In this document: piece by piece, positions 28,540 through 38,214 of the stretch
Layout: every line of letters starts with the position of its first letter
How positions within the stretch are numbered: the first letter of the stretch is position 1
NCBI GenBank assembly: GCA_024277895.1
Contig: JAJRUH010000122.1
Location: 1-43,632 of the forward strand
Source of the DNA: Bacteroidota bacterium
GTDB taxonomy: Bacteria; Bacteroidota; Bacteroidia; Bacteroidales; JAADGE01
Direction: 5' to 3'
Length of the DNA: 43,632 nucleotides
Position numbers and translations under genes: made by a program
Notes under the pieces: model-generated
Seen by the model: the letters and a program-made list of their open reading frames with translations, nothing else
Database searches by the model: none
Told to the model about the DNA's origin: nothing

Positions 28540-30057
28540 TTAAAACTGAAAATAAATAAAAGGTTGTAAATCGGAAGTTCGTGCCTGCCATATTATAAAA
28601 ACCGAAACAGCAACAGTTGCTAACTTTGCCCATTGCGGAAAGTTTATAAATGCTTGTTTGTAAGCGTCTTTTATTTTTACCGGCAGCCAGTGTATTATCA
28701 TCGCCAAAAGCATTAATGCAAAAATATTTTTATAAGCAATAATAATTTCTCCGGTTTTAGAAAAATCAAAAGCACTCGTTATTTGGTGCATAATGCCGTT
28801 TGCAGCTTCCATACTTTCGCTGCGAAACCAAATTCTGGTTGCCGTAATAAAATTAAAAGTAAGAAAAATTGCATAAAAACGCACGGCCCAATGTTTGCTG
28901 TCTTTAAAAGGACTTATTTTGCGCCAGTATTTATAAATAACCAAACCGATTCCGTTTAATCCTCCCCAAATAACAAATTGCCAACTTGCTCCATGCCAAA
29001 GCCCTCCGAGCAGCATTGTAAGCATAAGATTTATGTTGGTTCGGGTTTTGCCTTTTCTGTTTCCGCCGAGCGGAATATACAAATAATCTTTCAGCCAAGA
29101 AGAAAGCGAAATATGCCAGCGTTTCCAAAATTCGCCGGTATGCAGGGCTTTATACGGCGAATTGAAATTTACGGGTAATCGGAAACCCATTAAAAGTGCA
29201 ACTCCTATGGCAACATCAGTGTAGCCGGAAAAATCGGAATATACTTGTATCGAATATCCGTACAGAGCCATTAAATTCTCAAAACCGCCGTATGTTGTAG
29301 GATTGCTGAATACACGATCGACAAAATTAACGGCAATGTAATCTGCTATTACGAGTTTTTTTATTAATCCGTTTAGTATCATAAAAACCGCAAAACCAAA
29401 TTCTGCTTGTGTTATATTAAATTTTTTATAAAGTTGCGGAATAAATTCGGAAGCCCTGACAATGGGACCCGCCACCAGTTGCGGAAAAAATGACACAAAA
29501 AATCCGAAGTCGATTATGTTTTTTACGGGTTCAACTTTTTTTCTGTAAATATCAATGGTGTAGCTTATGGTTTGAAAGGTAAAAAACGAAATTCCTACGG
29601 GAAGAATAATTTTATCTATGGTAAAATGTGTTCCGGCAAATTGATTTGTCCATTTTGCAAGTAAATCGACCGGTTGGAGATGAATTCCGAAAAGGTAATT
29701 AAAACTTTCGGTAAAGAAAACAGAATATTTGTAATAAACCAGAACAGATAGATTTATTGTAATACTCAATGCGACAAACAGTTTGCGTTTTAAATTATTT
29801 TCCGATTTATAAATTATTTTTCCGGTAAGGTAACCCACAGTAATCGAAAATAAAAGAAGCAAGAAAAAAATTCCGCTTGTTTTATAATAAAAGAAAACGC
29901 TTATAAGAAAAAGATATGCGTTTCTCGGTTTTTCTTTTTTGTAAATTATCGTATAAAGAGCATAAATTACTGCAAAAAACAACCAAAACCACAATCGTGT
30001 AAAAATAAGCGGGTGTCCTTTATCGAATAAAAATATATTTTTAATAAAGTCTTGCAT
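28540..30057 (-). CDS. MBOAT-family membrane O-acyltransferase (AlgI/PatA/DltB-like)
   Basis: This 505-residue protein with about eleven to thirteen membrane segments moves acyl groups, usually acetyl, across the inner membrane to extracytoplasmic polysaccharide. The family signature is clear: HTGEFWKRWHISLSSWLKDY (His315 in WH), LYIPLGGNRKG, then GGLWHGASWQFVIWGG with the conserved His355. PQLVAGPIVRASEFIPQL in the first half is also typical. It is the last gene of a run containing two SGNH hydrolases and a lytic transglycosylase, the usual partners of O-acetylation systems. Target could be peptidoglycan or an exopolysaccharide. Confidence 0.93.
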   Translation of the reverse strand: MQDFIKNIFLFDKGHPLIFTRLWFWLFFAVIYALYTIIYKKEKPRNAYLFLISVFFYYKTSGIFFLLLLFSITVGYLTGKIIYKSENNLKRKLFVALSITINLSVLVYYKYSVFFTESFNYLFGIHLQPVDLLAKWTNQFAGTHFTIDKIILPVGISFFTFQTISYTIDIYRKKVEPVKNIIDFGFFVSFFPQLVAGPIVRASEFIPQLYKKFNITQAEFGFAVFMILNGLIKKLVIADYIAVNFVDRVFSNPTTYGGFENLMALYGYSIQVYSDFSGYTDVAIGVALLMGFRLPVNFNSPYKALHTGEFWKRWHISLSSWLKDYLYIPLGGNRKGKTRTNINLMLTMLLGGLWHGASWQFVIWGGLNGIGLVIYKYWRKISPFKDSKHWAVRFYAIFLTFNFITATRIWFRSESMEAANGIMHQITSAFDFSKTGEIIIAYKNIFALMLLAMIIHWLPVKIKDAYKQAFINFPQWAKLATVAVSVFIIWQARTSDLQPFIYFQF

Positions 30058-30094
30058 AAAATCTGTCAGCGAAAATAAAAATAGTTGGTTAAAT

Positions 30095-31333
30095 TCAAAA
30101 GTTTAAAGTATTTTCGGTTAAATGATTGTCATAAATTTTAATAAGTGCATTAAAAAATAAGTTCCCTTTTATAATGTATCCTTTTTTTGTGAAATGAATA
30201 AGGTCGTTTTGCATAAGTTTGTCTTTGTGCCACAGATAAGATGAATTATAACCGCCCATAACGGCATAAAAATCCCAAATTCCGCAATTATACTCCTTTG
30301 CGAGTTCGAATATTACTTTTTCGGCATCGGCGGTAAACGGAAGCGGGTCTCTTCTTCGGTAATAGCAATCGTTAGGAACGGTTAAAATAATTGCTGCATC
30401 GGGAACAGCATTTTTTATTTTATTCAGAAAATCAACATAATGCCTTTTGTATCTTTCGGGATAAAATATTTTTCCGTAAGTATCGTTTGTACCGAGCGAT
30501 ATAATTACCAAATCGGGTTTTACGACGGAAAGTTGTTTTTCGAGCAAATCGCATTTTAAAAACGAGGGGATACTTGCTCCGGAAATTCCGGCATCGGTAT
30601 AAATAATTCCTGCAAAAGAATTTTCCAAACCTATGCCGTAGAGTGTAAATTTGTTTTGTGCGGTATCGGTTTTTTGCAGTTTTAATTTTATTTCGGAAAT
30701 AAAATCTTCGGTTTTTATAAGCGTGTATCCTTTTTCGGGAAATTCGGTAACTTTATATGTCGAACTGTCGGCGGAAAGTCTTATTTTATATGAATTTTTT
30801 CCTGTTTCGTGAAATATTTTGATAATATCGGTTTCGTATTTTTGATATTTCGGATTTAAAGTTACAGAAATTGTTGCGGTGCTGTCGTGTGTTGTTGCTG
30901 CAATTCCGAGCATTCCGAGAGAACAGTCTTTATGCTCGACGTTCCGGCAGGTTTCCCATTTTCCCGTCCATTTTATTCGGTAATTTTTCGTAGTGTAGGT
31001 TTTTGACATTCCGTAAGGAAAAATAAAACCTCTGCCTCCGTTAAGTCCGGGATAAAAATTTTGCAGTTTTTTTCTTGTAACTCCGGAATAAATTCCTGCC
31101 TGAATATGCGAGCCGCCGAAATGAATAATGTTAATTTTTCCTTCTCCTTTCAGAATTAAATTATCAAGTTTTTTGTTGAATTTTTCAAAATCGGAACTGT
31201 CGCCGGGAAAAATAATTTTGTTTTTATCGTATCTGATATATCTGTAATCGGAATATTCGGTATAGGGATAGTCTTGAGCAGACAGGTTTCGGGAGAATAT
31301 TATCAGAATTATAAATGTTAAAAGTTTTTGCAT
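30095..31333 (-). CDS. SGNH/GDSL hydrolase-like secreted protein
   Basis: This 412-residue protein has a signal peptide (LLTFIILIIFSRNLSAQ) and the blocks of an SGNH esterase/acyltransferase. Block I is IIHFGGSHIQAGIYSG, where the usual GDS is GGS (Asp to Gly, Ser kept). Block III is VIISLGTNDTYG, and block V is NDLIHFTKKGY with the catalytic Asp-x-x-His. Between blocks I and III is a beta-rich insertion of about 170 residues. With the MBOAT gene 37 bases downstream it likely completes an O-acyl transfer or removal step in the periplasm. A paralogue with an intact GDS lies at 32813-34345. Confidence 0.85.
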   Translation of the reverse strand: MQKLLTFIILIIFSRNLSAQDYPYTEYSDYRYIRYDKNKIIFPGDSSDFEKFNKKLDNLILKGEGKINIIHFGGSHIQAGIYSGVTRKKLQNFYPGLNGGRGFIFPYGMSKTYTTKNYRIKWTGKWETCRNVEHKDCSLGMLGIAATTHDSTATISVTLNPKYQKYETDIIKIFHETGKNSYKIRLSADSSTYKVTEFPEKGYTLIKTEDFISEIKLKLQKTDTAQNKFTLYGIGLENSFAGIIYTDAGISGASIPSFLKCDLLEKQLSVVKPDLVIISLGTNDTYGKIFYPERYKRHYVDFLNKIKNAVPDAAIILTVPNDCYYRRRDPLPFTADAEKVIFELAKEYNCGIWDFYAVMGGYNSSYLWHKDKLMQNDLIHFTKKGYIIKGNLFFNALIKIYDNHLTENTLNF

Positions 31334-31434
31334 AAGTTAAATCATTGTTTATTATTTTTACACAAGCAACAAATTAGTTCTGAAAATTGTTGAAGATATT
31401 GTTTTTTATAAACACTATTGGATTTTATGTTAAG

Positions 31435-32790
31435 TTATTGTGAAACTTTCATTGCAGATGGTACCCTCCCTGTTTCATTGTTAAAATTTTTAACTAATTG
31501 ACCTAAAAAGTCAGATGTGTTTTTTGTTTTGTCGTAATATATTTTAATATCTGTTTGATCTATTAATTTTAATATAATTTGTTTTTTATTTTGGCTATGT
31601 TTAATATCTATAATTTCAAAAAATATAATTGCAATATATAGAGTCCTATATTTAATTTTAATATTTATATTTATTCCTCTGATATATATATCAATAGAAA
31701 TTTTTATGCTTTTACTTTTTAAAAAGTTATCAATTTGGTTAATGCCCTCAATATTTTTTAAGTAGGGTTTTTTAAAATCATTATAATTAAAATATGTTTT
31801 TACTATATTCAATTTTTTAGTAGCTTCTGTTTTAGATAAAATATATTTGCCTATATATGTTTGGTATATATCTAACTTTATTTTAATTTTATCGAATAAA
31901 TTTCTGTAATAATATTTTGAAAGGTTATAAAATGCTTTTTCCCAGTATATAATAGCTTTTTCTCTATTAAATTTTTTAATTTCTATATTACCTAAATAAT
32001 AATTAGCTTCAGCAGAATATTTTTTTGAAGTTTTTATATTCATTAAATCATTTTCTGCTAAGTCGTATTTCTCTATATTATAAAAGGAAATACCTCTATA
32101 TTTATATATTATACTACTCTCTTTGTTATATGTTCTACTAATTAAATTGCAGATATCAATACATTCCGTATATCTTTTATTTATAAATATATCATTTATT
32201 TTTTTCAGTAACTTTTCATGTTTTTCTAAAGGCAAATTTTTATTAATAGCGATTTTTAATTTTAGTTTTCTTAAAAAACCTATAATAATAAGAGATAAAG
32301 CAGGAAAAAAGAAAGCAAAAAATCCCCAAGCAGTTTCATTTCTATTTTGTCTTTTTGCAGATTTTGTTATTTCTGTTGCTACAAATATTCTTATAAGAAT
32401 GTTTATTAATGCAAATATACCTTGTGCAATTTGAAGATATTCAATAGTGCTTATATTAGAAATTATTAACCAATTGTAAATAATTGGGATAAGAAAAATA
32501 AAAATACCAAGTACTATTTTATCACTTTCTTTTTTGTACGATAAAACGTATTTTGTGCTTTCTTTTTTAATTTGAACTTTATTTTCTATAACTTTATTAT
32601 TGCTTATCGGTAAAGGGGGCGGTTCGCTTATTAAAAAACCTTTTAATTCTTCTAAAGCATTTGCTTGTTCCCAATTATTCATACCTTCAGTCCAAATCAA
32701 AACAGATTTTTTTAAACGTTTACTTTTTATTTCTTCTAATGTGAATGGACCGTATTGTTGGTCATTTTCTGCGTAATAGTATAGTTTCAT
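31435..32790 (-). CDS. GYF_2-domain membrane protein with TPR-like repeats
   Basis: This 451-residue protein begins with a GYF_2 (DUF4339) domain, LYYYAENDQQYGPFTLEEIK then VLIWTEGMNNWEQA (about 1-52), often found at the start of bacterial membrane proteins and thought to bind peptides. Two to four hydrophobic helices follow (about 90-185). Then comes a TPR-like helical region (about 200-310, YRGISFYNIEKYDLAENDL and YYLGNIEIKKFNREKAIIYW). The remainder is Ile/Lys-rich and unassigned. Its DNA is poorer in CCG/CGG words and richer in ATA Ile codons than its neighbours, suggesting later acquisition. It separates two SGNH genes. Function unknown. Confidence 0.75.
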   Translation of the reverse strand: MKLYYYAENDQQYGPFTLEEIKSKRLKKSVLIWTEGMNNWEQANALEELKGFLISEPPPLPISNNKVIENKVQIKKESTKYVLSYKKESDKIVLGIFIFLIPIIYNWLIISNISTIEYLQIAQGIFALINILIRIFVATEITKSAKRQNRNETAWGFFAFFFPALSLIIIGFLRKLKLKIAINKNLPLEKHEKLLKKINDIFINKRYTECIDICNLISRTYNKESSIIYKYRGISFYNIEKYDLAENDLMNIKTSKKYSAEANYYLGNIEIKKFNREKAIIYWEKAFYNLSKYYYRNLFDKIKIKLDIYQTYIGKYILSKTEATKKLNIVKTYFNYNDFKKPYLKNIEGINQIDNFLKSKSIKISIDIYIRGININIKIKYRTLYIAIIFFEIIDIKHSQNKKQIILKLIDQTDIKIYYDKTKNTSDFLGQLVKNFNNETGRVPSAMKVSQ

Positions 32791-32812
32791 AATGAGAAAT
32801 TTTATTGTTTTT

Positions 32813-34345
32813 TTACTTTTTCTTTCTCAAATACCGGTTATATTCATACATAAAAGCATTGTAAAACATTTTTGCAATATATCGCGCACCTTGCGGTGTG
32901 AAATGCGTAAAATCTTTTTCTCCCAAAGGCGGGTCGTAAAAAACCCAACTCGGCATAGAGTTTTCTCCGCCCATTGCTTCATACATATCCCAATAGGCAC
33001 AGTTGTTCTCAAAACTTGCTTGTTTAAGGGCATCTCTTATCAAAGGAACATTCGGATATGTTATATAAGTGTCGCCATCTTTTTTTGACATATCAGCCAA
33101 TCCGATAACCATTATCGTAAGATTGGGGGCAATTCTTTTAAGTGTGCGAAGTTGTCTCGAAAAAGCTTTTCTGTAATAATCGTAACTTTTACGAACGTTA
33201 GGAACAATATTTCCTCCGAATTGCAGAATCAGAAGTTTGGTATTTAATTGTCGGTACATTCGACTCAGCATATTTAAGTCCATTTTTGTGAAAAATAAAC
33301 CGCCGCTGCCTCGCATTGCTATGTTATCAACATTAATTCCGGAATATCCTTCGAGAGAAAAGCCGTAAATATCCGGACTGTCTTCGGCTTCAAATTCAAA
33401 TCTTATATTTTGCGGTGTGGTTTCAAAATTCCAGGTTTTTGTTTTATAATCGTTTGAAGGGGGCAGGATGCTTTCATCAATCAGTTGTTCGTCGGCAAAA
33501 GTTTTTATTTTAACTTCAGTTTTATTGTAACCGTAAAACATTTTGCATCTTTTAAAATGTTTGGTAGGTCGGAAAGAGTAGGGCGACTGTGATATGGAAA
33601 TACTTGCATAACTCATTAGTTTATGAGGCATTAATTCTTCCTGATTAAAAACTTTTATGGAATCCGGAAGTGTGTCGTTAATAATAGGTGTAAATCTTGC
33701 AAAATTACCCAACATACCATAGTGATTGTGTTTTACAATTGTGTCGCGTCTGCCGTAAACAGTGTAACGCTTCCAGTCTCCGGAAACGGATTGTATCATA
33801 GGCGATTTAAAATCGAATGCTTTTACGGCGGGGACAATTCCGGGACCGACACCGCCGAATCGGGATTGTAATTTGTAACGAAAATAATCTGTAATCCTGT
33901 CTGTTTCTATCTGGGAATCACCATAATGCATTATTCGTACAATTCTTTTTTGATTTTTAATATTTGAAAGAATTGCAAAAAATTTATCTAAACTTGAATG
34001 TGATTTATCGGGAAATTCAATATGTCTTACAACAGAATCAATTTTAACCGGTATCGGTTTGTAGTAAACATATTGAGAATCAATCATTACGGAATCAAGA
34101 TTTTTTTTCTTGTTTTCTTTTATAAATACAATCGTATCTGTTTCATCTTGAATGTCGGTTCCGTTTATAATATTTGAAATATCCGGTTCTGCTTGTTTAG
34201 GCGGATTTATTATGTCTTCTATAGTTATAAATTTTAAGGTAAATTTATTTGTTATTTTAATTCCTTCAGAAGGAAAAACTACAGATAATAATAACAGAAT
34301 AAAAAGACCGGAAAATATAAAAATCAGAACTTTTTTCGGAGTCAT
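32813..34345 (-). CDS. SGNH/GDSL hydrolase-like protein, membrane anchored
   Basis: This 510-residue protein has an N-terminal membrane helix (VLIFIFSGLFILLLLSVVF) and a linker, then the SGNH fold. Block I is RIMHYGDSQIETDRI with an intact GDS. Block III is reduced to LILQFGGN, and block V is EKDFTHFTPQGARYI with the Asp-x-x-His pair. The central insertion is beta-rich, as in its neighbour. Family knowledge points to periplasmic carbohydrate esterase or acyltransferase activity, in the role AlgJ/AlgX or PatB play beside an MBOAT. It begins 18 bases after the end of the LysM segment of mltD, so it is read from the same transcript. Confidence 0.85.
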   Translation of the reverse strand: MTPKKVLIFIFSGLFILLLLSVVFPSEGIKITNKFTLKFITIEDIINPPKQAEPDISNIINGTDIQDETDTIVFIKENKKKNLDSVMIDSQYVYYKPIPVKIDSVVRHIEFPDKSHSSLDKFFAILSNIKNQKRIVRIMHYGDSQIETDRITDYFRYKLQSRFGGVGPGIVPAVKAFDFKSPMIQSVSGDWKRYTVYGRRDTIVKHNHYGMLGNFARFTPIINDTLPDSIKVFNQEELMPHKLMSYASISISQSPYSFRPTKHFKRCKMFYGYNKTEVKIKTFADEQLIDESILPPSNDYKTKTWNFETTPQNIRFEFEAEDSPDIYGFSLEGYSGINVDNIAMRGSGGLFFTKMDLNMLSRMYRQLNTKLLILQFGGNIVPNVRKSYDYYRKAFSRQLRTLKRIAPNLTIMVIGLADMSKKDGDTYITYPNVPLIRDALKQASFENNCAYWDMYEAMGGENSMPSWVFYDPPLGEKDFTHFTPQGARYIAKMFYNAFMYEYNRYLRKKK

Positions 34346-34363: not shown

Positions 34364-34600
34364 TTATTTTTTCTTTACAATAATTTCCTGACCTATTTTT
34401 AAGTCTCTTACATCTTCATCTGAAAAACCGTTGATTTTTTGAATGTCATTTGCTGAAATTCCGTCAAATTTTTTGGCAACTGTCCATAGGTTATCTCCGG
34501 ATTTGATTTTGTAAATAACATATTTATTCTTGTCAGGTTTTACAACGGGTTTATTATGTATTGTCGGAATATTGGTTTTTATTTTTTGCTCAGTTGTCAT
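34364..34600 (-). CDS. C-terminal LysM fragment of MltD, cut off by a premature stop
   Basis: This 78-residue ORF holds one LysM domain, VIYKIKSGDNLWTVAKKFDG through LKIGQEIIVKKK, which binds peptidoglycan glycan. It is in the same frame as the mltD ORF at 34730-35923. The bases between code without further interruption (WYDCSVNDLKYWNKTRSTRL, then the end of the first LysM and a linker), so a single TAA at 34730-34732 divides one 519-codon gene. The ATG used here is just an internal Met of that gene. Alone, the fragment lacks a signal peptide and is unlikely to be exported. Confidence 0.8.
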   Translation of the reverse strand: MTTEQKIKTNIPTIHNKPVVKPDKNKYVIYKIKSGDNLWTVAKKFDGISANDIQKINGFSDEDVRDLKIGQEIIVKKK

Positions 34601-34729
34601 TTTGTTGATTTTTTGGTAGTGAGCATATTTTTTTGCAGGAATCCAAACGGCAATTTTTTGACCTATTTGTAATCGAGTGCTGCGAGTTTTGTTCCAATAT
34701 TTTAAATCATTAACGGAGCAATCGTACCA

Positions 34730-35923
34730 TTAGGCAATATTACTGTATGTATCATCTGATTTTACGGTATAGTATAATTTTTTTCTGTGTTTTGTACTCG
34801 GCGGCGAATAGTTATAATTGTTATATGGTCGGTCGCTTTTTGCCGGAGAAATTAATGTAACTTGTTCGTTTAAATAAACACTGTCTTTGTATTTATAAAT
34901 TTCATTTTCCGAATTTAAAAAATCACTGACTTTATCAAAAGGTAATCTTAAAGGATAGGGTTTTACGTTTCCGGGAATAATATAACGTTTGTATTGAGGA
35001 TTTAATGTTGCAAGTTTATCAAAATCTATTTTTAAATACTCGGATACTTGTTTCAGATTTAATTTCTTTTTAATCATTACCGTATCGGTAAGCATGTCCA
35101 TATCAATTTTTTTCGGAATTATGTTATGCTCTTTATAATAATTCATAGAATATAAAGCCGCAATGTATGCCGGAATATAACCTCTTGTTTCACGAGGAAG
35201 ATAGGGATAAATATCCCAGAAATTTGTTTTTCCGCCGGAACGTTTAATTGCTTTCTTCACATTTCCGGCACCGCTGTTATAGGCAGCAATAGATAAGGTC
35301 CAATTACCGAAAATTTTATACATATCACGCAGATATTTTGCTGCAGCTTCGGTAGATTTTAAAACATCCATTCGTTCATCAACATAGGAATTAATTTCCA
35401 ACCCGTACATTTTTCCGGTCGGATACATAAACTGCCACAGACCTACTGCCCCGGAACGTGAACGTGCACGAGGATTGAGTGCGGATTCGATAATCGGCAG
35501 ATAACCGAGTTCTAAAGGTAAATTATATTTGTCTAAAATTTGTTCAATCATCGGCATATAATATTGTGAAATTCCGAGTAAATATCTTCTTGAGGCTGTA
35601 TTTTTAGTGTAAAATTGAATCCATTGTTTTACTATTTTATTATAGGTCATCGGAACAACAGTCGGCAGTTTATATAATCGTTCAATATAAACGGAATCAG
35701 GTATTATTTTCGGAGTTTTATCCGTAAAAGTATTTACGCTTGTATTATCATCATTCTCGGTTAAGCTTTGTTTAACGTACCAGTTATTAACCAGTTCATC
35801 TAAATATTGATTTTGTTGTGTTAAGGCATCAAGATTTTTATTGGTTGTATCTTGTGTCTTTTGAGCTTGTCCGATAAAAACGGCTGCAAATAAAAATATA
35901 ATCGTAAAAAGGGAATTTTTCAT
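34730..35923 (-). CDS. mltD: Membrane-bound lytic murein transglycosylase D-like, truncated by an in-frame stop
   Basis: This 397-residue fragment is a family 23-type lytic transglycosylase that cleaves peptidoglycan to 1,6-anhydro ends. A signal peptide (FTIIFLFAAVFIGQAQ) precedes the catalytic domain: GYLPIIESALNPRARSRSGA with Glu146, VGLWQFMYPTGKMYGL, and SIAAYNSGAGNVKKAI. An MltD-type middle region ends in KLYYTVKSDDTYSNIA, the start of a LysM domain, where TAA interrupts it. The coding frame continues to 34364 with the rest of that LysM and a second one. The catalytic part is complete and may be active, but with little wall-binding capacity. It lies 1 base after the DUF5683 gene. Confidence 0.88.
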   Translation of the reverse strand: MKNSLFTIIFLFAAVFIGQAQKTQDTTNKNLDALTQQNQYLDELVNNWYVKQSLTENDDNTSVNTFTDKTPKIIPDSVYIERLYKLPTVVPMTYNKIVKQWIQFYTKNTASRRYLLGISQYYMPMIEQILDKYNLPLELGYLPIIESALNPRARSRSGAVGLWQFMYPTGKMYGLEINSYVDERMDVLKSTEAAAKYLRDMYKIFGNWTLSIAAYNSGAGNVKKAIKRSGGKTNFWDIYPYLPRETRGYIPAYIAALYSMNYYKEHNIIPKKIDMDMLTDTVMIKKKLNLKQVSEYLKIDFDKLATLNPQYKRYIIPGNVKPYPLRLPFDKVSDFLNSENEIYKYKDSVYLNEQVTLISPAKSDRPYNNYNYSPPSTKHRKKLYYTVKSDDTYSNIA

Positions 35924-35924
35924 A

Positions 35925-36521
35925 TTATTTAAAATTGAAACAAAAAGTAAGACCTAATGTGTTTTTTTTCATTTTCCCGTATAGCGGGATTATTTCGGGT
36001 GATATTTTTAATGATAAATCGTCACTGACATCAAAATCAGAAAGTTCTGCATCTACAACGGCATCAATAATATTTAAACCGTAAACAGCTAATATAATAA
36101 CCGCCGATAAATCTCGGTTTCTTCTTGTTGAGTTTTTATATTGAAGTAAAACATCGGTACCGATATCTTCGCTGAAAATTGTTTCCTTGAGAGTGGTATC
36201 AATTCTTTGTTGGTAACCTGTAAGGAATTTTTTATAAAGTTTATTATTGTATTGAAAAAAGAATGCGGCAGATCCTAATGCAGAATATACAATCGGAACT
36301 TTCCAGTATTTCCCGTTATAAACTTGTCCTGCTCCGGGTAAAATAGCTGAAAATAATGCGGCTCTTCCGGATTTCTTCTTTTTTATCGACGAATTTATTT
36401 CAACTTCTTTTACACCTTTTATTATTAGGGTATCTTTATTTTTATTAAGTGAGTCGTTTTGACTGTATCCCGTACCGTTAAAGGAAATAATAATAATACT
36501 TATGAAAACAAATTGTTTCAT
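35925..36521 (-). CDS. DUF5683-type secreted/membrane protein
   Basis: This 198-residue protein has a signal peptide (FISIIIISFNGTGYSQ). The DUF5683 core is KKKSGRAALFSAILPGAGQVYNGKYWKVPIVYSALGSAAFFFQY, with two further hydrophobic helices around it and RRNRDLSAVIILAVYGLNIIDAVVDA. The family is of unknown function and, as I recall, commonly lies between parB and mltD in Bacteroidota, as here. The gaps are 25 bases from parB and 1 base to mltD. Confidence 0.82.
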   Translation of the reverse strand: MKQFVFISIIIISFNGTGYSQNDSLNKNKDTLIIKGVKEVEINSSIKKKKSGRAALFSAILPGAGQVYNGKYWKVPIVYSALGSAAFFFQYNNKLYKKFLTGYQQRIDTTLKETIFSEDIGTDVLLQYKNSTRRNRDLSAVIILAVYGLNIIDAVVDAELSDFDVSDDLSLKISPEIIPLYGKMKKNTLGLTFCFNFK

Positions 36522-36546: not shown

Positions 36547-37440
36547 CTATTTCTCTTTAATACGAGAGAGAAGTTTTTTTATTTTATTAAATTCTTCATC
36601 TGATGTAAAAGAAATGGAAATACTTCCTCTTCCTGCATTATTTCTCTTGATGTTTACATTGCTGTTAAAAACTTCGGATAAATCTTTTTTAAACGTAAGG
36701 TAAGTTTCGGGTAAATTATTTTTTGCCGTTTTTTTTAAGTCTTTTTTAACGGGAAAATTGATTTCTCGTATGATATTTTCTGTTTCTCTTACCGATAATT
36801 TTTCGGAAATAATTTTTTCATAAACGGAAACCTGTTTTTTTGCGTCTTCAATAGTTATTAATGCTTTTGCATGTCCTTGTGTGATTAATTTATTTTGAAT
36901 ACCGGATTGTATCTCAGCCGGAAGTTTTAAGAGTCGCAAATAATTGGTTACTGTTGTTCTGTTTTTTGATACTTTAGTTGCTAATTGGTCTTGTGTGAGA
37001 TTGCATTCGTCAATAAGTCGTTGATATGAAACAGCAATTTCAACGGCATTTAAATCTTCGCGTTGGATATTCTCAATTAATGCCATTTCGAGCATAGCAG
37101 TGTCATCGGCTTTTCTTACAAAGGCAATAATTTTTTTTAATCCTGCATCTTTTGAAGATCTTAATCGTCGTTCGCCGGAAATTAACTGAAACTTACCGTT
37201 TTTTAATTTTCTGACTGTAATCGGCTGAATAATACCGTGTTGTTTTATAGATTCCGTAAGTTCTTTTAAAGATTCTTCATTGAAATCTTCACGCGGTTGA
37301 AACGGATTGAGTTCTATATCTTTAATATTAATTTCAGCAACAGCTCCTGTAGATATTGCTTCTTCAACGGGTTTTGTTTCAAATTTTGAATTGTCAATTA
37401 AGGCTCCTAAACCTTTTCCTAAAGGGCTTTTTTTTGCCAT
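36547..37440 (-). CDS. parB: Chromosome partitioning protein ParB
   Basis: This 297-residue ParB/Spo0J protein loads at parS and spreads as a CTP-dependent clamp. The N-terminus carries the ParA-interacting stretch (SPLGKGLGALI). The CTP/arginine motif ISGERRLRSSKDAGL lies near residue 80, then ENIQREDLNAVE. The helix-turn-helix follows, LTQDQLATKVSKNRTTVTNYLR, and GHAKALI. The C-terminal dimerisation segment is at about 255-297. It follows parA with a 6-base gap. No exact parS (TGTTTCACGTGAAACA) was noticed in the window, so the origin cannot be placed from this. Confidence 0.96.
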   Translation of the reverse strand: MAKKSPLGKGLGALIDNSKFETKPVEEAISTGAVAEINIKDIELNPFQPREDFNEESLKELTESIKQHGIIQPITVRKLKNGKFQLISGERRLRSSKDAGLKKIIAFVRKADDTAMLEMALIENIQREDLNAVEIAVSYQRLIDECNLTQDQLATKVSKNRTTVTNYLRLLKLPAEIQSGIQNKLITQGHAKALITIEDAKKQVSVYEKIISEKLSVRETENIIREINFPVKKDLKKTAKNNLPETYLTFKKDLSEVFNSNVNIKRNNAGRGSISISFTSDEEFNKIKKLLSRIKEK

Positions 37441-37446
37441 ATTATT

Positions 37447-38214
37447 CTAATTTTTATTTCTTTCTATAAGTTCTCTTGCTAAATTTAAATAGTTAATGCT
37501 GCCTTTCGAATTCGCATCATAAATTATTGCAGGCATTCCGTAACTCGGAGCTTCGCTCAGTTTAATGTTTCGTTGTATAATGGTGTCAAAAACCATACTT
37601 TCAAAATGTTTTCTTACTTCGGCAGCTACGTGGTTTGATAAACGAACACGGGAATCATACATTGTTAAAAGAAAACCTTCAATTTCAAGTTCTTTGTTAA
37701 TATTTTTTTGAATCATTTGAATGGTATTCAGTAATTTTCCCAGACCTTCTAATGCAAAATATTCACATTGAACAGGAATGATAACGGAATCGGCTGCAGC
37801 TAATGCATTTAAGGTTAGAAGTCCTAATGAAGGCGAACAATCAATTAAAACATAATCATACTTGTCTTTTACTTTTTTTACGACGGTATCTAAAATATAT
37901 TCTCTGTTTTCTTCTTCCAGCATTTCAATTTCGGCACCGACCAAATCAATATGCGAAGGGATTATTTCCATCCCGGGAGTTTCTGTTTCTAAAATGACGT
38001 CTTCAGGCTTAATTCCGTTTATGAAACAATCGTATATGCTGTGTTCAATATCTTTTAAATCAAATCCTATTCCTGAAGTTGCATTTGCTTGCGGATCAAA
38101 ATCTACAATTAAAACCTTTTTTTCAAGAACAGCAAGACTGGCTGCTAAATTTATAGCTGTGGTGGTTTTTCCTACGCCGCCTTTTTGATTTGCTATTGCA
38201 ATGACTTTTGACAT
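37447..38214 (-). CDS. parA: Chromosome partitioning ATPase ParA (Soj-like)
   Basis: This 255-residue deviant-Walker ATPase segregates ParB-parS complexes over the nucleoid. The deviant Walker A is KGGVGKTT at residues 11-18 with signature Lys11. Walker A' is VLIVDFDPQANATSG, and Walker B is YDYVLIDCSPSLG. VIPVQCEYFALEGL is also diagnostic. It has chromosomal length, without the N-terminal DNA-binding extension of plasmid ParA. It heads the co-directional run parA-parB-DUF5683-mltD. A TATTTTTG on the minus strand at 38252-38259 is a possible -7 box. Confidence 0.96.
   Translation of the reverse strand: MSKVIAIANQKGGVGKTTTAINLAASLAVLEKKVLIVDFDPQANATSGIGFDLKDIEHSIYDCFINGIKPEDVILETETPGMEIIPSHIDLVGAEIEMLEEENREYILDTVVKKVKDKYDYVLIDCSPSLGLLTLNALAAADSVIIPVQCEYFALEGLGKLLNTIQMIQKNINKELEIEGFLLTMYDSRVRLSNHVAAEVRKHFESMVFDTIIQRNIKLSEAPSYGMPAIIYDANSKGSINYLNLARELIERNKN

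Follow-up and report, generated by a model that had tools for sequence, protein, structure and literature searches.

Recent nonsense alleles and pseudogenes are a familiar category in bacterial draft genomes. The membrane-bound murein transglycosylases of the MltD type combine an SLT lytic transglycosylase domain with C-terminal, peptidoglycan-binding LysM repeats. In E. coli, deletion of mltD by itself is tolerated, and MltD deprived of its LysM part functioned poorly (PMC10931528). The stretch of DNA analyzed here (43,632 nucleotides; the window) is contig C102 of a Bacteroidota draft bin of 3.19 Mb in 183 contigs (95.73% complete, 1.37% contamination). It carries an mltD-like gene with one in-frame TAA inside the first LysM domain. 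This interruption is an ordinary one and not a new kind of system. Its probable origin is a nonsense substitution of one base that arose recently in the sequenced strain; the resulting allele would be weak or null, and tolerated by the cell.

Translation of the minus strand from 35923 to 34364 gives 520 codons: 397 residues, a TAA at 34732-34730, 121 residues and a final TAA at 34366-34364. The frame has stops at those two places only and contains no frameshift. With the first stop masked as X, it aligns with the intact relative L004 across 519 positions (95% identity). The truncated gene (397 codons; 34733-35923, minus strand) encodes an N-terminus that we read as signal-like, a complete SLT domain at residues 129-232 (PF01464; E-value: 6.2e-28), the region that follows it and the N-terminal 13 residues of LysM domain 1. 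The same-frame remainder (34364-34729, minus strand) encodes the rest of LysM 1, a linker and a complete LysM 2, and ends with the second TAA. Pfam identifies one complete LysM in this part (E-value: 1.1e-17), and a LysM profile searched against the whole bin places LysM 1 at 34646-34771 on C102 (minus strand), with one TAA inside the match, and LysM 2 at 34373-34513. Because the domains are split across the TAA in one frame, the two predicted ORFs represent a single mltD cut inside LysM 1. The downstream ORF (34364-34600; 78 residues), putatively without a signal peptide by our reading, begins merely at the first start codon past the TAA. The earlier note had described a single in-frame TAA dividing an otherwise intact mltD within its first LysM domain, with both ORFs in one frame and no further stop or frameshift; translation and both domain searches bear this out, and the alignment of the 121 post-stop codons to orthologues is beyond chance and so confirms the interrupted frame.

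The bin was compared with 39 relatives; some match was found in all 40 genomes, and 29 new loci were returned. The closest relative among the genomes compared is G012. An mltD orthologue is present in 12 of 13 same-genus genomes (63-95% identity), none of them with an internal stop; for the thirteenth, G009 (77% complete), the sole match is a weak one to a paralogue. The alignment of relatives, which omits matches without a returned locus, consists of 30 sequences: the 29 loci and a second copy from contig C85 of the same bin (L002), with the distant paralogue L003 left out. In one aligned relative (L021) the contig ends short of the TAA site; none of the 29 that have the position carries a stop there. 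The codon at the site is GAA (Glu) in all 12 congeneric orthologues, each of which reads past it, and in the C85 copy. Outside the genus, 16 relatives have other sense codons, Ser in nine of these. The earlier expectation of Glu or Gln in relatives was thus right for Glu, while Gln occurs in none of the 29. A single base change as the origin of the TAA is supported by the 12 stop-free congeners with GAA.

A scan of the genome contigs found 318 relatives, of which the best 80 were analyzed with a LysM model built from the aligned relatives. Two complete LysM domains were counted in 71 of these 80, one in eight and none in one (L065), whose frame reaches the end of the available sequence with a partial LysM. 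A separate count of tail length took in 67 of the 80, omitting 11 without the motif pattern used and two without a stop in the available sequence. A stop inside the only or first LysM was seen in none of the best 80 of 318 homologues. MltD as a protein that naturally ends at this site, a case the earlier note had raised against an interruption, was rejected, since none of these homologues is seen to stop inside LysM 1. The number of LysM domains does vary in relatives: the single-LysM homologues (L047, L049, L050, L051, L053, L067, L069 and L077) are more distant relatives, 45-53% identical.

The best NCBIfam match of the truncated protein is NF008050, murein transglycosylase D (E-value: 2.4e-44, 151 bits), as it is for intact L004 (E-value: 1.7e-60, 205 bits). 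Both miss the curated equivalog cut-off of 508 bits, so the protein is described as MltD-like, a name given by domain order and best match. Of the two parts expected of MltD, the SLT domain is present in the truncated protein, and the C-terminal LysM repeats are absent from the protein as translated, the complete LysM coming after the stop; intact L004 has two LysM stretches. The truncated protein retains the stretches ESALNP, GLWQFM and AAYN, which we take to be active-site motifs of MltD's family. Two further proteins with SLT are encoded in the bin, one on C141 and one on C85. By analogy with E. coli, the most plausible view of the LysM-less MltD is that its allele is weak or null and would be bearable for the cell.

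Over the whole gene, the window mltD and L004, the copy in the closest relative, differ with a dS of 0.172, a dN of 0.020 and a dN/dS of 0.119. By region, dN/dS is 0.249 for residues 1-100, 0.195 for residues 281-397 and 0.030 for the SLT part. The 121 codons after the stop (14 silent and five amino-acid differences) give 0.074, which is lower than in the first two of these regions and higher than in the SLT part. Changes were assigned to branches using four congeners as the outgroup. The window branch received four amino-acid and five silent changes besides the stop, and the L004 branch seven and two, with 55 ambiguous. After the stop, the window branch has one amino-acid and two silent changes and the L004 branch two and one, with 13 ambiguous. 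By our calculation, about 30 amino-acid changes would have gathered in the tail had it evolved free of constraint on the window branch from the split onwards, and at most three are possible there. The stop must therefore be much younger than the split between the window and L004, or not real; likewise, the frame past the stop still looks constrained, which points to a recent change or an error.

The genes upstream of mltD, all on the minus strand, are intact relative to G012: a neighbour at 35925-36521, a parB-type gene at 36547-37440 and a parA-type gene at 37447-38214. Downstream of mltD (28540-34345, minus strand), an MBOAT acyltransferase gene lies near two GDSL-lipase-like genes, one of which (32813-34345) scores slightly below the Pfam cut-off; these genes are possibly a cell-surface O-acylation cluster. 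The ORF at 31435-32790 (minus strand; 451 residues) bears a GYF_2 domain (PF14237) at its N-terminus. No counterpart of it was found in the stretches of G012 that were compared, where the genes on either side of it are both syntenic.

The second mltD of the bin lies at 1774-3477 of C85, a contig of 3,616 bases (locus L036, G000:C85:1-3616) that by our reading also bears the end of a parB gene and a gene placed like the window gene at 35925-36521. This copy is 51% identical to the window mltD and also holds an in-frame TAA, located after its intact SLT domain and before its LysM domains. Among the loci fetched by then, its best match was L045 from a Labilibaculum sp. MAG (57% identity). No second mltD at this level of identity was found in the congeners, where the other matches listed, in 13 drafts, are 33-42% identical. 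C85 is most likely a mis-binned contig of another Bacteroidota. Its mltD was rejected as a compensating duplicate, being foreign-looking and itself interrupted.

Of the three explanations offered in the earlier note, recent mutation and sequencing error both remain, and read-through lost ground because no relative has the stop. Under an error, the organism's mltD would be intact, and the stop would come from a miscalled base or from the assembler's choice of a minority allele. We regard this as a serious possibility, though the less likely one. A lone substitution within an otherwise constrained frame is what an error would look like, the TAA is found in one draft genome only, and the interrupted copy on C85 belongs to the same bin; that two mltD copies of the bin are cut by a TAA may be a sign of low base quality in places. 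The comparison with G012 speaks for a real base. Reciprocal comparisons were made between window ORFs of 100 codons or more and two sources in G012, contig C92 and loci from contig C71. Of 41 such ORFs, 38 have a G012 partner; eight of these are shadow ORFs by our reading, and 30 genes were kept. A stop within the aligned gene occurs in mltD alone; the 29 other partnered, non-shadow genes contain neither a stop nor a frameshift. In three other G012-to-window comparisons the stops precede the start of the window gene, and the rest are in shadow ORFs. Among above-cut-off domain matches in the bin, none carries an in-domain stop (PF00005, 0/33; PF07715, 0/20; PF00072, 0/30; total, 0/83), although this check is blind outside the domain: the SLT domain of the broken C85 mltD also scored as stop-free. 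One of 38 PF00005 matches in the bin has a TAA, but it scores below the cut-off and is taken as spurious. These checks argue for a decent base quality of the bin, with which one wrong base remains compatible. We lean towards a real mutation because mltD is the sole broken gene of 30 and because the changes assigned in mltD show no excess on the window branch. A literature search on premature stops in MAGs found no paper combining all the terms sought.

A real TAA could also be decoded at times, giving some full-length MltD beside the LysM-less form. The conserved frame downstream of the TAA would suit such read-through, but that conservation is equally expected of a stop that originated recently, as its absence from all 29 relatives with the position implies; the same absence makes programmed read-through unlikely. 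TAA is moreover a common terminator here, as had been claimed from the window alone: it ends 19 of the 30 partnered window genes (18 of 29 without the mltD stop in question), so the code looks standard. Scoring 150 of 266 candidates in the bin with RF00005 yielded 37 tRNA matches. ARAGORN typed 36 of these; the last (L156), for which it gave no type, is truncated where its contig ends, and by our inspection its anticodon is TCT. None of the 37 has the UUA anticodon of a UAA-reading tRNA, in a set that is incomplete, as seen from its lack of a typed tRNA-Ile. Reassignment of UAA was rejected on the terminator counts, with which this incomplete tRNA set agrees, and on the same grounds we consider read-through very unlikely. 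Even more remote is a selected loss of the LysM tail, in which each of two Bacteroidota lineages, binned together, would have shed the wall-binding part of its MltD through a stop codon. The C85 mltD, with its TAA after an intact SLT domain, is the observation behind this idea. That contig is only 3.6 kb long and probably from another lineage, its stop is placed differently, between the SLT and LysM domains, the cases number just two, and at least one complete LysM is present in 79 of the best 80 of 318 homologues. It is accordingly hard to credit that a shared habitat pressure favouring LysM-less MltD led to independent tail loss in the two lineages; were it true, a wall-active agent or a phage might be the source of such pressure.

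The proposed model for the interrupted gene, as a recent nonsense allele, is as follows. If the TAA base is real, the ribosome would halt there and release a protein of 397 residues, consisting of the N-terminus and the whole SLT domain with no complete LysM. This truncated MltD would presumably be made and secreted but work poorly. The cell could tolerate a weak or null MltD because mltD alone is dispensable, as in E. coli. A real base would provide a natural MltD that keeps its catalytic domain and has no complete LysM, a form that reportedly performed poorly in E. coli (PMC10931528). The main consequence is for annotation, in which the two ORFs should be treated as a single interrupted gene and the genome flagged with a "probable truncated mltD".

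The locus resembles the recent nonsense alleles and pseudogenes of bacterial drafts in having one stop, a frame that is otherwise constrained and close relatives that are intact. No difference from that category was seen, and on sequence alone it is not separable from a consensus error. As in MltD, the continued reading frame has an SLT domain and two LysM domains; unlike in MltD, a stop here falls inside LysM 1.
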